Part shown: piece by piece, positions 13,097 through 23,068 of the stretch
Layout: every line of letters starts with the position of its first letter
Numbering within the stretch: position 1 is the stretch's first letter
Source: Rhodoferax fermentans
GTDB lineage: Bacteria > Pseudomonadota > Gammaproteobacteria > Burkholderiales > Burkholderiaceae_C
Direction: 5' to 3'
Length of the DNA stretch: 64,000 bases
Assembly: GCF_002017865.1 (NCBI RefSeq)
Contig: NZ_MTJN01000002.1
Location: forward strand, 3,348,001 to 3,412,000
Made by a program: the position numbers and the translations under genes
Notes under the pieces: model-generated
Databases searched by the model: none
Told to the model about the DNA's origin: nothing
Seen by the model: the letters and a program-made list of their open reading frames with translations, nothing else

Positions 13097-13190
13097 AAAT
13101 TTCTACCTGGTCTCTTTCCAAGGCGGCCAAATCGACCCATTTAGAACTTTTAGCCGCCAAAGCTCTAACTGACTATGGAAAACGTTGTCA

Positions 13191-14078
13191 ATGAAACCAC
13201 TGACTCTCTATTGCAAAAGTTACAGAACCGATCTGCGGCGTGTGGTTCGGCTGGCGCAGTCCATCCGGCAGCACAACACGGACAACTTGCCCTTTTATGT
13301 GTCGGTGCCCCAGCATGACCTGGCACTGTTTCGCGAACATCTGGGGGGCTTTGCGGTGGAATTGCTGACCGACGAAGACATCCTTCAAGCCTCACCGCGG
13401 ATCGACGCAGAACAAGTCAGGCGCATGCCAGGCAGCCTGTCGCAGCAGGTGGTGAAATCCGAATTCTGGCGTCTTGGCCTGTCGACGGCCTACCTTTGCC
13501 TAGATTCGGACGCAGCCTTTATCCGGCCGTTTAGTTTGGCAGATTTCATGACGGCCGAGGGCACACCCTACACCATGTTGGACGAATGTCATGATCTGAT
13601 GGAAGACGCAATTCGTCACCAACGCAGGCGGGTGGTTGATGCCTACATCAAGGAAGCCGATCTGGTGCAACAGCTTTTTCAGCGGCTGGGGCGGCGCTAC
13701 AGTTTTGGCCCCTTTCCTCTGGTCTGGCACCGGGCGGTCTGGGAAAGTCTGGACAGCCACTATCTACAGCCCAAAGGCATGAACTTTGCCGATGCAATCA
13801 CGCAGGCGCCCATTGAATCACGATGGTACGGCGAGGCTTTGCTCGCCTATGGAGCGATCCCGCTGCTTCCCTGCCAGGCTCTGTTCAAGGTCTACCACTA
13901 TGCCTGGCAATACGACCGGGACCAACGCGATGGCGTCAGGTCGCTAGACCTGGCTCAATTCTATTGCGGCGAGATCAAACAATCCAACTGGGAGCGGGAG
14001 ATGGATTGGCCCCAGGAGGGTGGTGGTGTTCTTTCTCGGTTGGGCCGGAGGTTGCGCCGCCGCTTGGGGCGCATCTGA
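13191..14078 (+). CDS. DUF6492-like putative glycosyltransferase
   Basis: The 295-residue protein starts KPLTLYCKSYRTDL and contains LGLSTAYLCLDSDAAFIRPF, where a D-S-D triplet after a hydrophobic strand resembles the DxD metal site of GT-A glycosyltransferases. This N-terminal pattern (CKSY..D...V..L..SI..HN) fits DUF6492. The C-terminus is rich in arginine, which could contact the membrane. ATG at 13191 is preferred over the in-frame TTG at 13185. Its position just after msbA among glycosyltransferases supports a role in glycan assembly; its sugar is unknown. Confidence 0.65.
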   Translation: MKPLTLYCKSYRTDLRRVVRLAQSIRQHNTDNLPFYVSVPQHDLALFREHLGGFAVELLTDEDILQASPRIDAEQVRRMPGSLSQQVVKSEFWRLGLSTAYLCLDSDAAFIRPFSLADFMTAEGTPYTMLDECHDLMEDAIRHQRRRVVDAYIKEADLVQQLFQRLGRRYSFGPFPLVWHRAVWESLDSHYLQPKGMNFADAITQAPIESRWYGEALLAYGAIPLLPCQALFKVYHYAWQYDRDQRDGVRSLDLAQFYCGEIKQSNWEREMDWPQEGGGVLSRLGRRLRRRLGRI

Positions 14079-16122: not shown

Positions 16123-16896
16123 ATGAAAGCAGTCATTCTTGCAGGAGGACTCGGTACCCGGATTTCCGAGGAAACCTCTACTCGCCCAAAACCGATGATT
16201 GAGATCGGTGGAAAACCGATCCTATGGCACATCATGAAGATCTACGCCCATCATGGCATCAACGACTTCATCATCTGCTGCGGTTATAAGGGTTACCTGA
16301 TCAAGGAATACTTTGCCAACTACTTCCTGCACATGTCCGACATCACCTTTGACATGAGCAAAAACACCATGGAGGTGCACCAACAAAGCGCCGAACCCTG
16401 GCGAGTCACGTTGATCGATACGGGCGACAACACCATGACCGGTGGTCGCGTGAAACGCGTGGCAGACTATGTCAAAGACGAAGAAGCTTTTTGTCTGACC
16501 TACGGCGATGGTGTGGCTGATGTCAACATCACCGATCTGCTTGCTTTTCATAAAACTCAAAATGTCAAAGCCACCTTGACAGCAACCATTCCACCTGGTC
16601 GTTTCGGCGCGCTTGACTTGAGCGGCGGCAAAGTCAATAGCTTCATGGAGAAACCCAAGGGCGACGGCGCCATGATCAACGGTGGCTTTTTTGTGCTGTC
16701 ACCAGCTGTGATTGATTTCATCGACGGGGACAGTTGCATCTGGGAGCGCGGCCCCTTGGAAACACTGGCCCAGAACGGTCAACTGGCCGCCTACCAGCAC
16801 CACAGTTTCTGGCAACCCATGGATACCTTGCGCGACAAAACCTACCTGGAAGAACTCTGGCAGTCTGGCAAAGCGCCATGGAAGGTCTGGTCGTGA
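16123..16896 (+). CDS. rfbF: glucose-1-phosphate cytidylyltransferase RfbF
   Basis: RfbF makes CDP-glucose from CTP and glucose-1-phosphate, the first step towards CDP-3,6-dideoxyhexoses. The protein starts [18 protein letters not shown], the nucleotidyltransferase loop, and contains [18 protein letters not shown] and [11 protein letters not shown] (metal site near residue 128). The 257-residue length is normal. A longer frame from a GTG at 16093 is rejected because the conserved loop begins directly at 16123. It overlaps rfbG and heads the rfbFGH sugar operon. Confidence 0.95.
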
Positions 16897-17966
16897 ATCC
16901 GGCATTCTGGTCAGGTAAACGCGTTTTTTTAACCGGCCACACCGGCTTCAAAGGCAGTTGGCTCAGCCTGTGGCTACAAAGCCTGGGCGCTGAAATACAC
17001 GGCCTGGCGCTCACTCCGCCCACCACACCCAACCTGTTCACCGTTGCGCAGGTGGCGAATGGCATGGCCAGCAGCACCATTGGCGACATTCGCGACCTGG
17101 CCACCGTGCAAAAAGCCATGCAAACCAGTCAGGCCGACATCGTGATCCACATGGCGGCACAACCGCTGGTGCGCCTGTCTTACGCCGAACCCGTTGAAAC
17201 CTACGCCACCAATGTGATGGGCACCGTGCATGTGCTGGAGTCGGCCCGCCACACCCCGAGTGTCAAGGCCGTGGTGGTGGTCACTACCGATAAGTGTTAT
17301 GAGAACAAAGAATGGCTCTGGGGCTACCGTGAAGACGAACCTATGGGCGGTTTTGACCCCTACAGCAACAGCAAAGGCTGCTCAGAACTGGTGACCAGTG
17401 CCTACCGTTGCTCGTTCTTCAAAGACAAAGGCATTGCCTTGGCATCTGCCCGTGCTGGGAACGTCATCGGCGGTGGCGATTGGGCTGCAGACCGCTTGGT
17501 GCCAGACATCTTGCGTGCCTTCGAGAAAAACCAGCCTGTGGTCATTCGCAACCCCCATGCCACCCGACCCTGGCAACACGTGCTGGAGCCGCTTAGTGGT
17601 TATCTGTCATTGGCAGAGCACCTGTACACCGATGACCAAACATTCGCCGAAGGCTGGAACTTCGGCCCCAAGGATGACGATGCACAACCCGTGCAATGGA
17701 TTGTTGAGCACATGGTCAACAACTGGTGCAACGGCGCAAGCTGGCAACAAGACGACGGTGTTCACCCGCATGAAGCCAACTACCTTAAGTTAGATATCTC
17801 CAAAGCCAAAGCCCGACTGGGCTGGGAGCCACGCTGGCCCTTGGCAGCTGCGTTGAAGCACATCACCACGTGGCATCAAGCTTGGCTGGCCAATGATGAT
17901 ATGAAAAAAATGTGCTTAGCGCAGATACAGCAATACTCTTCAGCTATTTATTCAGAAGCAATATGA
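16893..17966 (+). CDS. rfbG: CDP-glucose 4,6-dehydratase RfbG
   Basis: This extended short-chain dehydrogenase converts CDP-glucose to CDP-4-keto-6-deoxyglucose. Visible are the NAD-binding [14 protein letters not shown] near residues 15-28, [25 protein letters not shown] and the catalytic region around [11 protein letters not shown] (in this family the Tyr-x3-Lys element is YSNSK). GTG at 16893 overlaps the rfbF stop as GTGA and has GGAAGG seven bases upstream; ATG at 16878 is the alternative start. It ends in an ATGA overlap with rfbH, so rfbF, rfbG and rfbH are translationally coupled. Confidence 0.94.
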
Positions 17967-19306
17967 CAACTGCACCTATTCAATTTACGCCCAAAGCCCC
18001 TGATGCCATCCGCCGCGAAATTGCTGCACTAGTGCAACAGTATTCAGATATCGTTCATGCGCCCCAAGCTTTTGTCCCCGGTGAAACCCTGGTGCCGCCT
18101 TCGGGCAAGGTCATTGGTGCCCAGGAACTCAAGAACATGGTCGAAGCCAGCTTGGACGGCTGGCTGACCACAGGGCGCTTCAACGCCGAGTTTGAGAAAA
18201 AGCTGGCTGCCTTCATCGGCATCAAACACCTGATCACCGTCAACTCCGGCTCCTCGGCCAATCTGGTGGCCTTCAACACCCTGACCTCCCCCAAGCTGGG
18301 CGCACGCGCCATCCAGAAATGTGACGAAGTCATTGGTGTGGCAGCTGGCTTTCCGACCACCGTCAATCCCATCTTGCAGTTTGGCGCCGTGCCGGTGTTT
18401 GTGGATGTGGACCCGCTGACCCACAACATTGATGCGTCCAAGATCGAAGCCGCCATCGGCCCCAAGACCAAAGCCATCATGTTGGCGCACAGCCTGGGCA
18501 ATCCCTTCAACCTAGACGTTGTCACTGCCCTTTGCAAAAAACATAACTTGTGGCTGGTGGAAGACTGCTGCGATGCGCTGGGCACCACCTACCGCGGCCA
18601 GATGGTCGGCACCTTCGGAGATATCGGCACGCTGAGTTTTTACCCAGCCCACCACATCACCATGGGTGAAGGTGGTGCAGTATTCACCAACAGCGACGAA
18701 CTCAAGGCCATTGCCGAGAGCTTTCGCGACTGGGGCCGCGACTGCTACTGCCAACCCGGCAAGGACAACACCTGTGGCAAACGCTTTTGCCAGCAACTGG
18801 GCAAACTGCCCTACGGCTACGACCACAAATACACCTACAGCCATCTCGGCTACAACCTCAAGATCAGCGACATGCAGGCCGCCTGCGGCCTGGCCCAACT
18901 GGAACAAGCGCCCCAGTTCATCCAGGCCCGCAAGGACAACTTTGCCTTCCTGAAAGCACGTCTGAAAGACTGTGAGGAATTTGTCAACTTGCCCCAGGCC
19001 ACCGAACACTCAGACCCGTCATGGTTTGGTTTCCCCATCACCCTCAAGGACAACTGCCCGGTGACCCGACTGGACCTGCTGACCTACTTGGACCAAAACA
19101 AGGTGGGTACCCGCCTGCTGTTTGCTGGCAACCTGACACGCCAACCCTACATGACAGGAGCCCATTACCGCATCAGCGGTGACCTGAGCAACACCGACAA
19201 CGTGATGAACAACACCTTCTGGATCGGGGTGCAGCCGGCACTGACACGGGAGATGCTGGAGTTTGCGGCTTCCAAGATCGAAAGTTACCTGGGCGTGAAT
19301 TTTTAA
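17963..19306 (+). CDS. rfbH: CDP-4-keto-6-deoxyglucose 3-dehydratase RfbH (E1)
   Basis: RfbH (DdhC, E1) is a PMP-dependent, [2Fe-2S]-containing enzyme that removes the 3-hydroxyl, giving the 3,6-dideoxy-4-keto sugar after reduction. The diagnostic replacement of the PLP lysine by histidine is visible in [11 protein letters not shown] (about residue 231). Cysteines C-Y-C-x7-C near 260-270 and an upstream E-D-C-C fit the iron-sulfur ligands. The 447-residue length is normal. The start at 17963 overlaps the rfbG stop. Its usual reductase partner (E3, ddhD/rfbI) is not in the window. A two-subunit transketolase follows at once. Confidence 0.94.
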
Positions 19307-19318
19307 GTGCACACCGCC

Positions 19319-20164
19319 ATGACCGATCTCCCTGCAACACCCACGCGAACTACCATGGCAAGCTTCGATGCTAGGGCATTGCGCAAAACCGTTTTGGACA
19401 TGGCTTTTGCCGGTTCAACTGTTCATATTGGTTGTGCGTTTTCCATCATCGAACTGTTGGCCGTGCTGTACCGCAGCCACCTGCGCTACCCCGGTAACGA
19501 TCCACAAGCAACAGACCGTGACTACCTGGTGCTCAGCAAAGGCCACGGCGTCATGGCGCAGTACGCCTGCATGCGTGAGCTGGGGTGGCTCAAGGATGAA
19601 GCGTTCTCAGGCTACTTTGCCGATGGCAGTGATCTCAAAGGTTTGTCGGATTCACGCATTCCCGGCCTGGAGGTCACCTCCGGCTCACTGGGCCACGGTT
19701 TCTCTGTCGGCCTCGGCATGGCCATGGGTGCCAAGTTGCGCGGCACCGATCAAAAGACCTACGCACTGGTTGGTGATGGTGAAATCAACGAAGGTCCGAT
19801 CTGGGAAGGTGCTTTGTTTGCGGCGCACCATGAACTCAAGAACTTCATCGTGATCGTCGATGAGAACGGCTTTCAGGCCATGGGGCGTACCCAGGATGTA
19901 CTTCGATTGGGCGCCATACAGAGCAAATTCGAGAGTTTCGGCTTTGAAGCGCGGACCATCGACGGCCATGACGAGGCCGCGATTGACCACGCCATCGAGC
20001 AGCTCTGGGCCAGCAGTTCAACAGCACCCAAAGCCCTCATCGCCAAAACCGTCAAAGGCAAAGGTGTGCCCTTCATGGAACACAACAACATCTGGCACTA
20101 CACGCGGCTCAACCAGGAAACCTATGCACAAGCATTGGCCGCAGTGGCCGGGAGTGCGTCATGA
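19319..20164 (+). CDS. transketolase, N-terminal subunit
   Basis: The 281-residue protein is the thiamine-diphosphate-binding half of a split transketolase. It has LSKGHGVMAQYA, TSGSLGHGFSVGLGMA and the ThDP/metal motif GDGEINEG near residue 151, closed about 30 residues later by VDENGFQ. Transketolases move a two-carbon ketol unit between sugars. A GTG at 19307 is a longer alternative start. Position after rfbFGH, overlap with the C-terminal subunit gene and the following SDR gene suggest that the acceptor is the 4-keto-3,6-dideoxy sugar rather than a pentose phosphate; that is inference. Confidence 0.88.
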   Translation: MTDLPATPTRTTMASFDARALRKTVLDMAFAGSTVHIGCAFSIIELLAVLYRSHLRYPGNDPQATDRDYLVLSKGHGVMAQYACMRELGWLKDEAFSGYFADGSDLKGLSDSRIPGLEVTSGSLGHGFSVGLGMAMGAKLRGTDQKTYALVGDGEINEGPIWEGALFAAHHELKNFIVIVDENGFQAMGRTQDVLRLGAIQSKFESFGFEARTIDGHDEAAIDHAIEQLWASSSTAPKALIAKTVKGKGVPFMEHNNIWHYTRLNQETYAQALAAVAGSAS

Positions 20165-21081
20165 GAGCTGCCTTCTCAGACACCCTGGTCCGCCTGGCCA
20201 AGGCCGACCCGAATGTGCTCTTGCTCACTGGTGATCACGGCTACGCCTTGTTTGATGATTTCCGCCGGGAATGCCCGGCGCAATACATCAATGCCGGTAT
20301 TGCCGAGCAGAACATGGTCGGCATGGCGGCAGGCCTGGCCCGCACCGGCTTCAGACCCTTCGTTTACGGCTTGAGTGCCTTCATCCCGGTACGGGTGCTT
20401 GAGCAGATCAAGCTCGACATCGCCCATGACCATTTGCCGGTGATCCTGATTGGTGACGGCGCCGGTTTTGTCTACAGCCATTTGGGCACCAGCCACCAAT
20501 CGACCGAAGACATGGCCTGTACCCGCGCCATCCCTGATTTGTCGGTCTACTCCCCTGCAGACCGCTTTGAAGTCAGTGCATGTATGGCGTTGGCCTACCA
20601 AACCAAAGTGCCGGTCTATTTGCGCATGGGCAAATCAGATCGTGGGGACGTGCATACCCATGACCTGAGCCAAGTCAAAGCTGGGCAGTTGCTGCAGGTG
20701 AAGGCCGGACAAGCTGGCGCCATCAGCTTGATTGCCACCGGCGCTTTGGTGCGCACGGCCCTGGATATCGCACAGGCGTCTTACCCTGAGGCCAGCGTCT
20801 GGAGTGCGCCGTTCATCAAACCGATGGACAGTCAGCAGGTGATAACCATCTGTGCGCAGAGTCGGGCCGTCATGGTTCTGGAAGAGCATTCCGTGCTGGG
20901 TGGTTTGGGTTCTGTCATCACCGAGATCGCCAGCGAATTTGCGCCAGTTCGGATTCTGCGGGTGGGTGTACAAGATCGCTTCTCGCAGCACTGCGGTACC
21001 TATGAATATTTGCTGAAAGAACACGGTCTGGATCGGCCTGCGGTTGAGCAGCGCATTCGCGATTTCCTGATCGCGAATTGA
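20161..21081 (+). CDS. transketolase, C-terminal subunit
   Basis: The 306-residue protein supplies the pyrimidine-binding and C-terminal domains of the split transketolase. It contains LLTGDHGYALFDDF, the catalytic-glutamate region NAGIAEQNMVGMAAGLA near residue 45 and HLGTSHQSTEDMA. The start overlaps the stop of the N-terminal subunit (ATGA), as expected for equimolar subunits. The pair is distinct in size from a fused housekeeping transketolase (about 660 residues). Context points to nucleotide-sugar modification. Confidence 0.88.
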   Translation: MRAAFSDTLVRLAKADPNVLLLTGDHGYALFDDFRRECPAQYINAGIAEQNMVGMAAGLARTGFRPFVYGLSAFIPVRVLEQIKLDIAHDHLPVILIGDGAGFVYSHLGTSHQSTEDMACTRAIPDLSVYSPADRFEVSACMALAYQTKVPVYLRMGKSDRGDVHTHDLSQVKAGQLLQVKAGQAGAISLIATGALVRTALDIAQASYPEASVWSAPFIKPMDSQQVITICAQSRAVMVLEEHSVLGGLGSVITEIASEFAPVRILRVGVQDRFSQHCGTYEYLLKEHGLDRPAVEQRIRDFLIAN

Positions 21082-21084
21082 GCC

Positions 21085-22023
21085 ATGCGCATCGCTATTT
21101 TGGGTGCCACCAGCCAGATTGCCAAAGATCTGATTCTTTCATTTGCCGCGCACAGCCAGCATGACTTGGTGCTGTACGCCCGCAGGCCGGAAGTTGTATC
21201 GCAATGGATGAACAACATTGGCTTGGTCGACCGATATCTGGTTGCCGACTTCACGGCCTTCAGCCCAGCAGAGCACTTTGATGCTCTTCTCAACTTCGTC
21301 GGGGTTGGCAACCCGGCCCAGGCAGCCGAGATGGGGGCATCGATTTTTGATGTCACGCTTAAATACGACGACATGGCCTTGGGCTATCTGCACCAGCATC
21401 CCGATTGCCGCTATATCTTTCTGAGTAGCGGTGCGGCGTATGGTGCAAGTTTTGATGAACCAGTAAACGAAACCACCCAGGCTTCCATTGCCATCAACAA
21501 CCTCCAGCCGCAGGACTGGTATGGCGTGGCCAAACTCCACGCCGAATGCCGACACAGGGCCTTGGCACCTTTACCGATTGTGGATCTGCGAGTCTTTAAC
21601 TATTTCAGCCATACGCAGGACATGGAGGCACGGTTTTTGATCACCGACATCGTGCGGGCAATTCGTGACAAGACCGCTCTGAAAACTTCCTCAGACTACA
21701 TCGTTCGCGATTACCTGCATCCAGCTGATTTTTACCAATTGGTCAGGGTGTTGTTGGCTGCGCCTGCAACTAACACAGCACTTGACTGCTATAGCTTGGC
21801 ACCCATTGACAAAGCCACCTTGCTGACGGTCATGCAGGACAAATTTGGATTGTTGTATGAAATACAGCACTCAGGTGTCGCGGTGAATGCAACGGGAAGG
21901 AAGCCTAATTATTTCTCAAAAAATAAATATCCTAAAGAGTTCGGATATTACCCGTCTTTTTCTTCCATCAATGGCATATGCAATGAAATTGAAAAATACT
22001 TCATGCAGGATAATTTGTATTAA
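21085..22023 (+). CDS. NAD-dependent epimerase/dehydratase (SDR), putative branched-sugar reductase
   Basis: This 312-residue extended SDR has the dinucleotide motif LGATSQIAKDL at its start, FLSSGAAYGASF and the catalytic pair in DWYGVAKLHAE (Tyr near residue 146, Lys four later). It begins three bases after the transketolase stop, so it belongs to the same operon. In the yersiniose pathway an SDR (YerF) reduces the keto group of the newly added two-carbon branch; the same role here is inference from position. The last ~50 codons become noticeably AT-rich, marking the transition to the foreign-looking next gene. Confidence 0.82.
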   Translation: MRIAILGATSQIAKDLILSFAAHSQHDLVLYARRPEVVSQWMNNIGLVDRYLVADFTAFSPAEHFDALLNFVGVGNPAQAAEMGASIFDVTLKYDDMALGYLHQHPDCRYIFLSSGAAYGASFDEPVNETTQASIAINNLQPQDWYGVAKLHAECRHRALAPLPIVDLRVFNYFSHTQDMEARFLITDIVRAIRDKTALKTSSDYIVRDYLHPADFYQLVRVLLAAPATNTALDCYSLAPIDKATLLTVMQDKFGLLYEIQHSGVAVNATGRKPNYFSKNKYPKEFGYYPSFSSINGICNEIEKYFMQDNLY

Positions 22024-22042
22024 AAGCAGGTACAAATAAAAA

Positions 22043-23068
22043 ATGAAAGAACTAACCATTGGCATACCTACATACAACGGAGCTCCCCACATCCGCGAGG
22101 CAATTGATAGCATCATTTTTCAAATACCATCATACCCAAACAATACTGTCGACATATTAATATCAGATAACGCATCCACCGATACAACAAGAGAAATAGT
22201 TAGCGAGTATTTGAAAAAATATCCGAAAATTATCCAATACAGAAGAAACGAAGTAAATCTTGGATTCGACAAAAATGTTGACCTTCTTTTCAAAGAAGCT
22301 CAGGGCGATTATGTATGGCTACTTGGCGATGATGATGCACTTTACAATAACTCAATCAACCACATTCTTGATCTGATAAAAAGAAATAAAAAACTCGGAG
22401 TCATACAAGCAAACTTTGACAAGTATGACGAAAAGCTCGAAAAAGTTATCGAAGAGGTAAAATTCTCAAAAGATTTATATTGCGCCAATGCAGATACTTT
22501 TCTTTACAACTGCAAAGGTAGATGGGGAGCCATTGCCTCTCTTATCATAAAAAAGAATACATGGAATTCATTAAATCTGAATGACGCATTTGGTACACAA
22601 ACAATCTTTGGATATGGCCTCTTTAAGATCTTACTGCTATCAGATTCATATATAGTTAAAAAACCTCTAATTAAGGTTCGTGATGGAAGTCAAAAAGCAG
22701 TCAAAAATGGTGATGGAGACACTAGAATAACTATTGCCCTCTCCTCAGGAACTCTTTACAAAAATATGCCAAAAATGGGATACAGCAAAAGCATCACAAA
22801 ATGGCATCTAAATGCAGACAGAAATTATGCATATGAATCAATACCAATAGCTAAACTTTGGGGTATAAAAGACAAAAAAACAATCATAAAGAAATTAATA
22901 GAGATTCATAATAGCCCAATTCTCTGGCTGAAATGGATACCCACAATCCTTCTTCCTGATTTTTTATATAGATCATTTTATTTTATTCGAAAAAAAATAA
23001 GCAAAAAAGCAAAGCCTATCGAGAAAAAAATTAAAACTTTCATTAAAAAATCATCTGATTCCTGTTAA
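22043..23068 (+). CDS. family 2 glycosyltransferase, abequosyltransferase-like
   Basis: The 341-residue enzyme opens with LTIGIPTYNGAPHIREAID and carries ILISDNASTD, RRNEVNLGFDKNVD and VWLLGDDDALYNNS (metal site near residue 95). The NLG-F/P-D-x-N and GDDDAL combination resembles RfbV/WbaV abequosyltransferases, which transfer a 3,6-dideoxyhexose; this fits the upstream pathway. Base composition is far below its neighbours (roughly one third GC), lysine and isoleucine are abundant and codons end in A or T, so recent horizontal acquisition is likely. The C-terminus is strongly basic and could bind membrane. Confidence 0.85.
   Translation: MKELTIGIPTYNGAPHIREAIDSIIFQIPSYPNNTVDILISDNASTDTTREIVSEYLKKYPKIIQYRRNEVNLGFDKNVDLLFKEAQGDYVWLLGDDDALYNNSINHILDLIKRNKKLGVIQANFDKYDEKLEKVIEEVKFSKDLYCANADTFLYNCKGRWGAIASLIIKKNTWNSLNLNDAFGTQTIFGYGLFKILLLSDSYIVKKPLIKVRDGSQKAVKNGDGDTRITIALSSGTLYKNMPKMGYSKSITKWHLNADRNYAYESIPIAKLWGIKDKKTIIKKLIEIHNSPILWLKWIPTILLPDFLYRSFYFIRKKISKKAKPIEKKIKTFIKKSSDSC

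Follow-up and report, generated by a model that had tools for sequence, protein, structure and literature searches.

A 64,000-nucleotide stretch of Rhodoferax fermentans DNA (the window; contig NZ_MTJN01000002.1, positions 3,348,001 to 3,412,000) carries at its positions 16123-23068 an operon in which a split transketolase (TK) follows rfbF, rfbG and rfbH. The operon is proposed to make a cytidine diphosphate (CDP)-activated, C-4-branched 3,6-dideoxyhexose of a surface glycan, with the transketolase pair using pyruvate as donor. We put the probability of this combined statement at roughly 0.6, and its parts differ in strength. It is very probable that the pair puts a carbon branch on the product of RfbFGH, and C-4 branching of a CDP-4-keto-dideoxysugar by the pair is well supported by the genomic evidence. 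Given that the pair branches the sugar, pyruvate is the probable donor. Gene order, its conservation, a shared reductase and residue changes were observed; each reaction step, the donor and the product are deduced from them.

Gene order and proposed pathway

Genes were assigned by family-model matches (Pfam, TIGR and PRK models with curated cut-offs) and by reading of open frames. A sequence-only reading of the window had claimed the order rfbF-rfbG-rfbH-TK-N-TK-C-SDR-glycosyltransferase, with overlaps, where TK-N and TK-C are the transketolase halves and SDR is a short-chain dehydrogenase/reductase. This order was borne out, with all frames open, on the + strand and positioned as claimed:

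16123..16896, + strand: rfbF/ddhA, glucose-1-phosphate cytidylyltransferase (TIGR02623, 478 bits, cut-off 300)
about 16878..17966, + strand: rfbG/ddhB, CDP-glucose 4,6-dehydratase (TIGR02622, 514 bits, cut-off 278)
17963..19306, + strand: rfbH/ddhC, CDP-6-deoxy-4-keto-glucose 3-dehydrase, E1 (PRK15407, 742 bits, cut-off 423)
19319..20164, + strand: TK-N, thiamine diphosphate (ThDP)-binding half of the split transketolase (Transketolase_N, PF00456)
20161..21081, + strand: TK-C, pyrimidine-binding and C-terminal half (Transket_pyr, PF02779; Transketolase_C, PF02780)
21085..22023, + strand: SDR of the Epimerase family (PF01370), proposed YerF-like ketoreductase of the new branch
22043..23068, + strand: family-2 glycosyltransferase (PF00535), candidate branched-sugar transferase, with a specificity suggested by position only

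Three gene pairs overlap (rfbF/rfbG, rfbG/rfbH and TK-N/TK-C), the rfbG start being read as ATG 16878, inside the end of rfbF. The gap from rfbH to TK-N is 12 bases, and that from TK-C to the SDR gene is 3 bases. The three genes for CDP-4-keto-3,6-dideoxyglucose, ddhA, ddhB and ddhC, all scored above their curated cut-offs. The label 'abequosyltransferase-like', given earlier to the glycosyltransferase, was not upheld, as the protein matched only general GT2 models.

In the proposed pathway, RfbF, RfbG and RfbH, together with an E3-type reductase encoded outside the locus, would supply CDP-4-keto-3,6-dideoxyglucose. TK-N/TK-C, in the slot that YerE holds in yersiniose synthesis, would pass an acyl unit of two carbons from ThDP on to the ketone at C-4, and a tertiary alcohol would be formed. 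With pyruvate as donor, CO2 would be lost and acetyl transferred. The SDR would then reduce the branch ketone to a yersiniose-type 1-hydroxyethyl branch, and the local glycosyltransferase would use the branched sugar.

Conservation of the cassette and the shared reductase

When the contigs of one genome collection were scanned with a TK-C alignment, 356 relatives were found, and the best 80 of them were kept. TK-N lay directly before TK-C in all 80 loci. An rfbH gene was found upstream of TK-N, on the same strand, in 65 of the 71 loci having at least 1.4 kb upstream (44 within 200 bp, 19 at 200-1500 bp and 2 further away), and rfbF, rfbG and rfbH were all present in 51 of the 56 loci having at least 5 kb upstream. 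A search of other genomes for the order rfbH-TK-N-TK-C-SDR had been suggested as a check, and the order does recur across phyla and is no product of chance. The hosts include beta- and gammaproteobacteria, sphingomonads, Chlorobi, a Cytophagales metagenome-assembled genome (MAG), Planctomycetota, Cyanobacteria and a spirochaete MAG, with many metagenome bins among them. Paucimonas lemoignei DSM 7445 (L027) and Janthinobacterium sp. FT68W (L025) are among the carriers in culture. Eleven loci were without upstream rfbH, several of them at contig ends. RfbH was present elsewhere in six of the seven genomes checked for these loci, compared with a base rate of 38 in 398 genomes; one of the six was a partial match, and in L077 rfbH lay in the same locus on the opposite strand. 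The seventh genome, without RfbH, was a 1.5-Mb bin. No match to TK-C (E up to 1e-60) or to the SDR (E up to 1e-25) was found in a plasmid collection.

Two side observations concern the cassette. It occurs on a 3-kb contig titled as a 'Bordetella parapertussis' MAG (L015), whose species label looks doubtful because its neighbours in the transketolase tree are environmental Burkholderiales. In eight loci (L016, L025, L027, L030, L031, L036, L037 and L039) the TK and SDR genes are followed by a GtrA-like small membrane protein and a polyprenyl-phosphate glycosyltransferase-like gene, which form clusters of 14 and 21 open reading frames (ORFs) in the 80 loci, GtrA being named by eye. These downstream genes suggest that the sugar can be a side branch added in the periplasm.

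The reductase was searched alone (E up to 1e-40) in 398 genomes sampled from the phylum, irrespective of rfb or transketolase genes, and its family was present in 10. It directly followed a TK pair in five (G000, which is the window's genome, G073, G117, G065 and G085) and a YerE-type PF02776 ThDP enzyme in four (G089, G145, G222 and G248). The three-domain PF02776/PF00205/PF02775 architecture was confirmed for these four carboligases, and the SDRs behind them are of the same family, with 52-61% identity. In the tenth genome (G045), an acetaldehyde dehydrogenase and an HMGL-like aldolase accompany the SDR within an rfbFGH locus. Nine of the 10 genomes thus have the SDR directly behind either a TK pair or a YerE-type enzyme, and therefore the TK pair sits in the YerE slot. 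On the plainest reading of these neighbourhoods, the two enzymes would be alternatives for one step. The earlier proposal that the pair replaces YerE on the RfbFGH product, followed by an SDR, is much strengthened by this count; the two-carbon unit named in that proposal is taken up below.

A tree of the SDRs puts three of the four YerE-linked proteins into starred groups with TK-linked ones and leaves the fourth unplaced; 21 of the 40 inner branches of this tree are open. Tyr146 and Lys150 of the YxxxK motif, which is characteristic of SDRs, do not vary among the 28 members aligned. For the window SDR, the AlphaFold model has a mean pLDDT (predicted local distance difference test) of 59. A second SDR family was also found beside TK pairs, and more distant members (31-36%) stand beside YerE-type genes in L100 and L126.

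RfbH gave an independent draw of 39 loci in 38 of the 398 genomes. A PF02776 enzyme was within 10 kb in 18 of them (11 within 5 kb), a TK pair in 4, and both in none. The window operon has no PF02776-type carboligase, and the nearest PF02776 match in the genome is more than 100 kb away. A protein search with a YerE-linked SDR gave no YerF-named record among the 120 matches listed, few of which were named at all. Two solved structures presumably represent the YerE type: PDB 5ahk, which we take to be PpYerE (recorded only as 'acetolactate synthase II, large subunit'), and 8rph, which we take to be JanthE (recorded only as 'thiamine pyrophosphate-binding protein').

Active site, donor and alternatives

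The TK pairs of these loci form one clade apart from 19 other split transketolases (FastTree local support 100; FastTree only, 90 rows with both halves). The nearest solved chains are 6yak, an N-terminal split transketolase, for TK-N (7.5e-56) and 6yaj for TK-C (6.7e-46). Residues were counted for TK-N in 71 of the 80 loci, those with an ORF in the main cluster, and for TK-C in 75 of 80, with L091 added to both sets; among these rows L091 is identical to L054, and L026 to L028. The other split transketolases compared (17 TK-N, 18 TK-C) came from 20 regions picked among the matches listed.

All ThDP and catalytic residues examined (H26, H66, D155, N185, H261, E411 and H473 in E. coli numbers) are kept in the window, E411 and H473 as Glu49 and His112 of TK-C; the roles of H26, D155, N185, H261 and E411 are those known for E. 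coli transketolase. In that enzyme R358, S385, H461 and R520 contact the sugar phosphate. Here R358 is kept, and TK-C has Ala29, Gly100 and Lys158 at the S385, H461 and R520 positions and Leu108 at that of D469. All 76 relatives compared likewise have Leu, Gly and Lys at D469, H461 and R520, and 70 of the 76 have Ala at S385.

The donor question turns on position 100. His100 of E. coli transketolase holds the C1-hydroxyl of the donor (PMC9366748). The window has Leu at this position (Leu109 of TK-N), as do 72 of 72 clade rows. His stands there in 24 of 24 comparators, namely the 17 other split transketolases, five distant rfb-linked pairs, E. coli TktA and the host's own full-length enzyme. 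The 1-deoxy-D-xylulose-5-phosphate synthase of the host (DXS, also DXPS) has Phe there and keeps Asp at the D469 position, and DXPS enzymes are described as consistently having Phe (PMC7661550). In the Geobacillus transketolase (GsTK), H100F and especially H100L raise activity on pyruvate, H100L reaching one third of DXPS activity, while the natural split enzyme of Carboxydothermus, with His100, is reported not to accept pyruvate (PMC7661550). A six-fold E. coli variant, in which H100L and D469T were added to four stabilising changes, accepts pyruvate (PMC10787763). With Leu at the C1-hydroxyl contact, pyruvate is the most likely donor, and the acetyl branch then expected would be of the kind that YerE makes, which fits the shared reductase. 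We put the odds just above even on a history in which a split transketolase evolved in place of the YerE decarboxylase in a widespread surface-sugar pathway and became a pyruvate:ketone acetyltransferase, with a nucleotide-sugar ketone as acceptor, by the same His-to-Leu exchange at position 100 that enzyme engineers made later.

Several points weigh against the proposed pathway. The 80 loci were ranked by likeness to the window TK-C, which favours like contexts. Among the 78 of 80 loci with usable flank that the SDR-neighbour count covers, no member of the three SDR families stood next to the pair in 13, of which at least 4 are at contig ends. A TK pair and a YerE-type gene occur together in 4 of the 80 TK loci (L017, L065, L066 and L076); the YerE-type genes of L065 and L066 are about 50% identical to that of L100, and in these two loci the carboligases perhaps serve distinct branched sugars of a single glycan. 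A PF02776 match identifies the YerE type and not YerE itself, and the SDR is likened to YerF by gene position. The ddhD gene for the E3 reductase is not in the window locus, and its nearest candidate, a 356-aa Fer2-FNR protein near C2:4054360, scores below every curated cut-off. Eight of the 80 TK loci have a Fer2-FNR gene next to their rfb genes (two of these loci were scanned), and this ferredoxin-FNR reductase is plausibly the DdhD partner. The changes at D469, S385, H461 and R520 are less telling because other split enzymes vary there too (D469 is non-Asp in 18 of 18, and another residue takes the place of H461 in 17 of 18 and of R520 in 10 of 18). The H100L argument comes from engineered enzymes with aldehyde acceptors and high Km, and His100 is kept by a set of rfb-linked TK pairs outside the clade (5 of 5: L103, L119, L146, L151 and L152). 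No biochemistry or glycan structure was found for any member of the clade.

The sequence-only reading had the pair transfer a glycolaldehyde unit. If hydroxypyruvate or a ketose phosphate were the donor, a 1,2-dihydroxyethyl branch would remain after the SDR had acted. Transketolases use such donors by default, and H26, H66, H261, E411 and H473 are all kept. The chemistry may exist in the distant pairs that keep His100, three of which (L103, L151 and L152) are followed by the same SDR family. With Leu instead of His at the C1-hydroxyl contact in 72 of 72 rows, the dihydroxyethyl branch is probably wrong for the window's clade, and we regard it as unlikely here. Still less probable is the same branching with another 2-oxo acid as donor (2-oxobutyrate or a 4-hydroxy-2-oxo acid), which would give a longer branch. 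ErwE prefers such donors (PMC12247030), and sister loci with the same SDR family (L090 and L099) hold aldolase genes that might make them; no such aldolase was seen among the window proteins scanned around the operon.

RfbFGH, the SDR and the glycosyltransferase might also make an ordinary 3,6-dideoxyhexose such as abequose, which SDRs also make, with the TK pair serving an unrelated step. Neither carboligase was nearby in 17 of the 39 RfbH loci, which counts for such a sugar and is a further point against branching. The SDR family, in turn, has ThDP carboligases (9 of 10) or the aldolase set (1 of 10) as neighbours and did not turn up in the remaining RfbH loci mapped; TK-N, TK-C and the SDR gene are packed tightly, by overlap or with a gap of 3 bases, so that an ordinary sugar seems improbable. 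That the pair, for all its transketolase domains, is a pentose-phosphate enzyme lying in the locus by chance is very improbable, given the changed donor contact and an rfbH linkage that crosses phyla. This role was rejected, since the 4.47-Mb genome, which is in 2 contigs, encodes another transketolase of full length in a 709-codon open frame, with a match of 529 bits to Transketolase_N at C2:4211641-4212639; the earlier concern that the pair might be the only transketolase of the organism is thereby answered.

Related loci and known systems

Two loci, L151:5259-9816 (genome G065) and L146:2417-7005 (G027), have the order rfbF-rfbG-TK-N-TK-C-SDR with no rfbH between; the SDR of L146 is of the second family. 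Their TK pairs, which are distant relatives (31-38%), have retained the His of position 100. These sets could branch CDP-4-keto-6-deoxyglucose without removal of the 3-hydroxyl, possibly with a glycolaldehyde donor. In G065, RfbH is encoded on another contig. An HMGL-like aldolase and an acetaldehyde dehydrogenase (L090:8587-10466) and a HpcH/HpaI aldolase (L099:9320-10102) each stand beside rfbFGH and an SDR of the window's family, and these aldolases could make hydroxy-2-oxo-acid donors for ErwE-like branching. The two genes after rfbH in L090 were considered as a third carboligase and rejected, being the aldehyde dehydrogenase and the aldolase. In L136 and L140, the TK pairs have as neighbours two genes of the DegT type (27-32% to RfbH), an arrangement that resembles the Actinoplanes wps-2 cluster, where a TK pair occurs with aminotransferases (PMC13390465). 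This is another use of split transketolases, and an unexplained one.

Elsewhere in the window, GC content drops to about 34% at 21836-23068, from the 3' end of the SDR gene through the GT2 gene (33% GC for the gene, 58% for the window), which may mark a recombination boundary within the locus for the glycan. The locus also encodes a DUF6492 protein at 13185-14078.

Pathways of this kind are known; the enzyme class in the YerE slot and the natural H100L exchange appear to be new. A 2025 review (PMC12247030) assigns YerE-like enzymes chiefly to surface glycans, and transketolases to antibiotic clusters. It lists branching by transketolases only for Streptomyces antibiotic clusters, with 13 split sequences, all from Streptomycetes and none characterised in vitro, and describes ketone use by transketolases as not shown in vitro. 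In the open-access literature, as covered by titles and abstract openings, transketolase was not joined to RfbH or to O-antigen sugar branching; the three papers naming both transketolase and RfbH were Salmonella biocide, egg-white and biofilm studies. Of two papers that name transketolase next to polysaccharide genes, one deals with central metabolism and the other with the TK pair of Actinoplanes.

If the proposal is true, a second ThDP superfamily carries out C-4 branching of CDP-4-keto-3,6-dideoxysugars, in surface glycans and not in antibiotics, and a natural transketolase uses pyruvate and a ketone in organisms from Proteobacteria to Chlorobi, Cyanobacteria and Spirochaetes. The clade as a whole (356 relatives, with H100L in all 72 compared) is predicted to take this pair of substrates. 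CDP-4-keto-3,6-dideoxyglucose is a defined candidate substrate for ketone use by transketolases, and the rfbH-TK-TK-SDR string lets annotators predict C-branched sugars.

The split transketolases of the miharamycin and amipurimycin clusters of Streptomyces likewise have split genes and a proposed two-carbon addition to a keto sugar, with their function described as still pending (PMC12247030). They differ in belonging to antibiotic clusters and not to surface-glycan loci, and the likeness is by description only. The split transketolase of Carboxydothermus hydrogenoformans (6yaj/6yak) is the nearest solved chain for both window halves, and by analogy an alpha2-beta2 architecture is expected for the window pair; it differs in having His100 and in not accepting pyruvate (PMC7661550). 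DXS, which uses pyruvate, resembles the window enzyme in its hydrophobic residue at the H100 position (Phe in DXS, Leu in the window). It differs in being a single chain, with Asp at the D469 position and an aldehyde-phosphate acceptor. TK-C scored 155 bits against the DXS model TIGR00204, below its cut-off, and at most 138 bits against the four transketolase models listed.

A close parallel in gene order is the yersiniose system YerE/YerF of Yersinia and Pseudomonas; in Pseudomonas WCS417, homologues of ddhA-ddhD, yerE and yerF are reported together (PMC4509608). There, as in the window, the precursor genes ddhA, ddhB and ddhC are followed by a ThDP carboligase and then by an SDR. The difference lies in the carboligase, which in the window is a two-gene transketolase and not a three-domain PF02776/PF00205/PF02775 enzyme.

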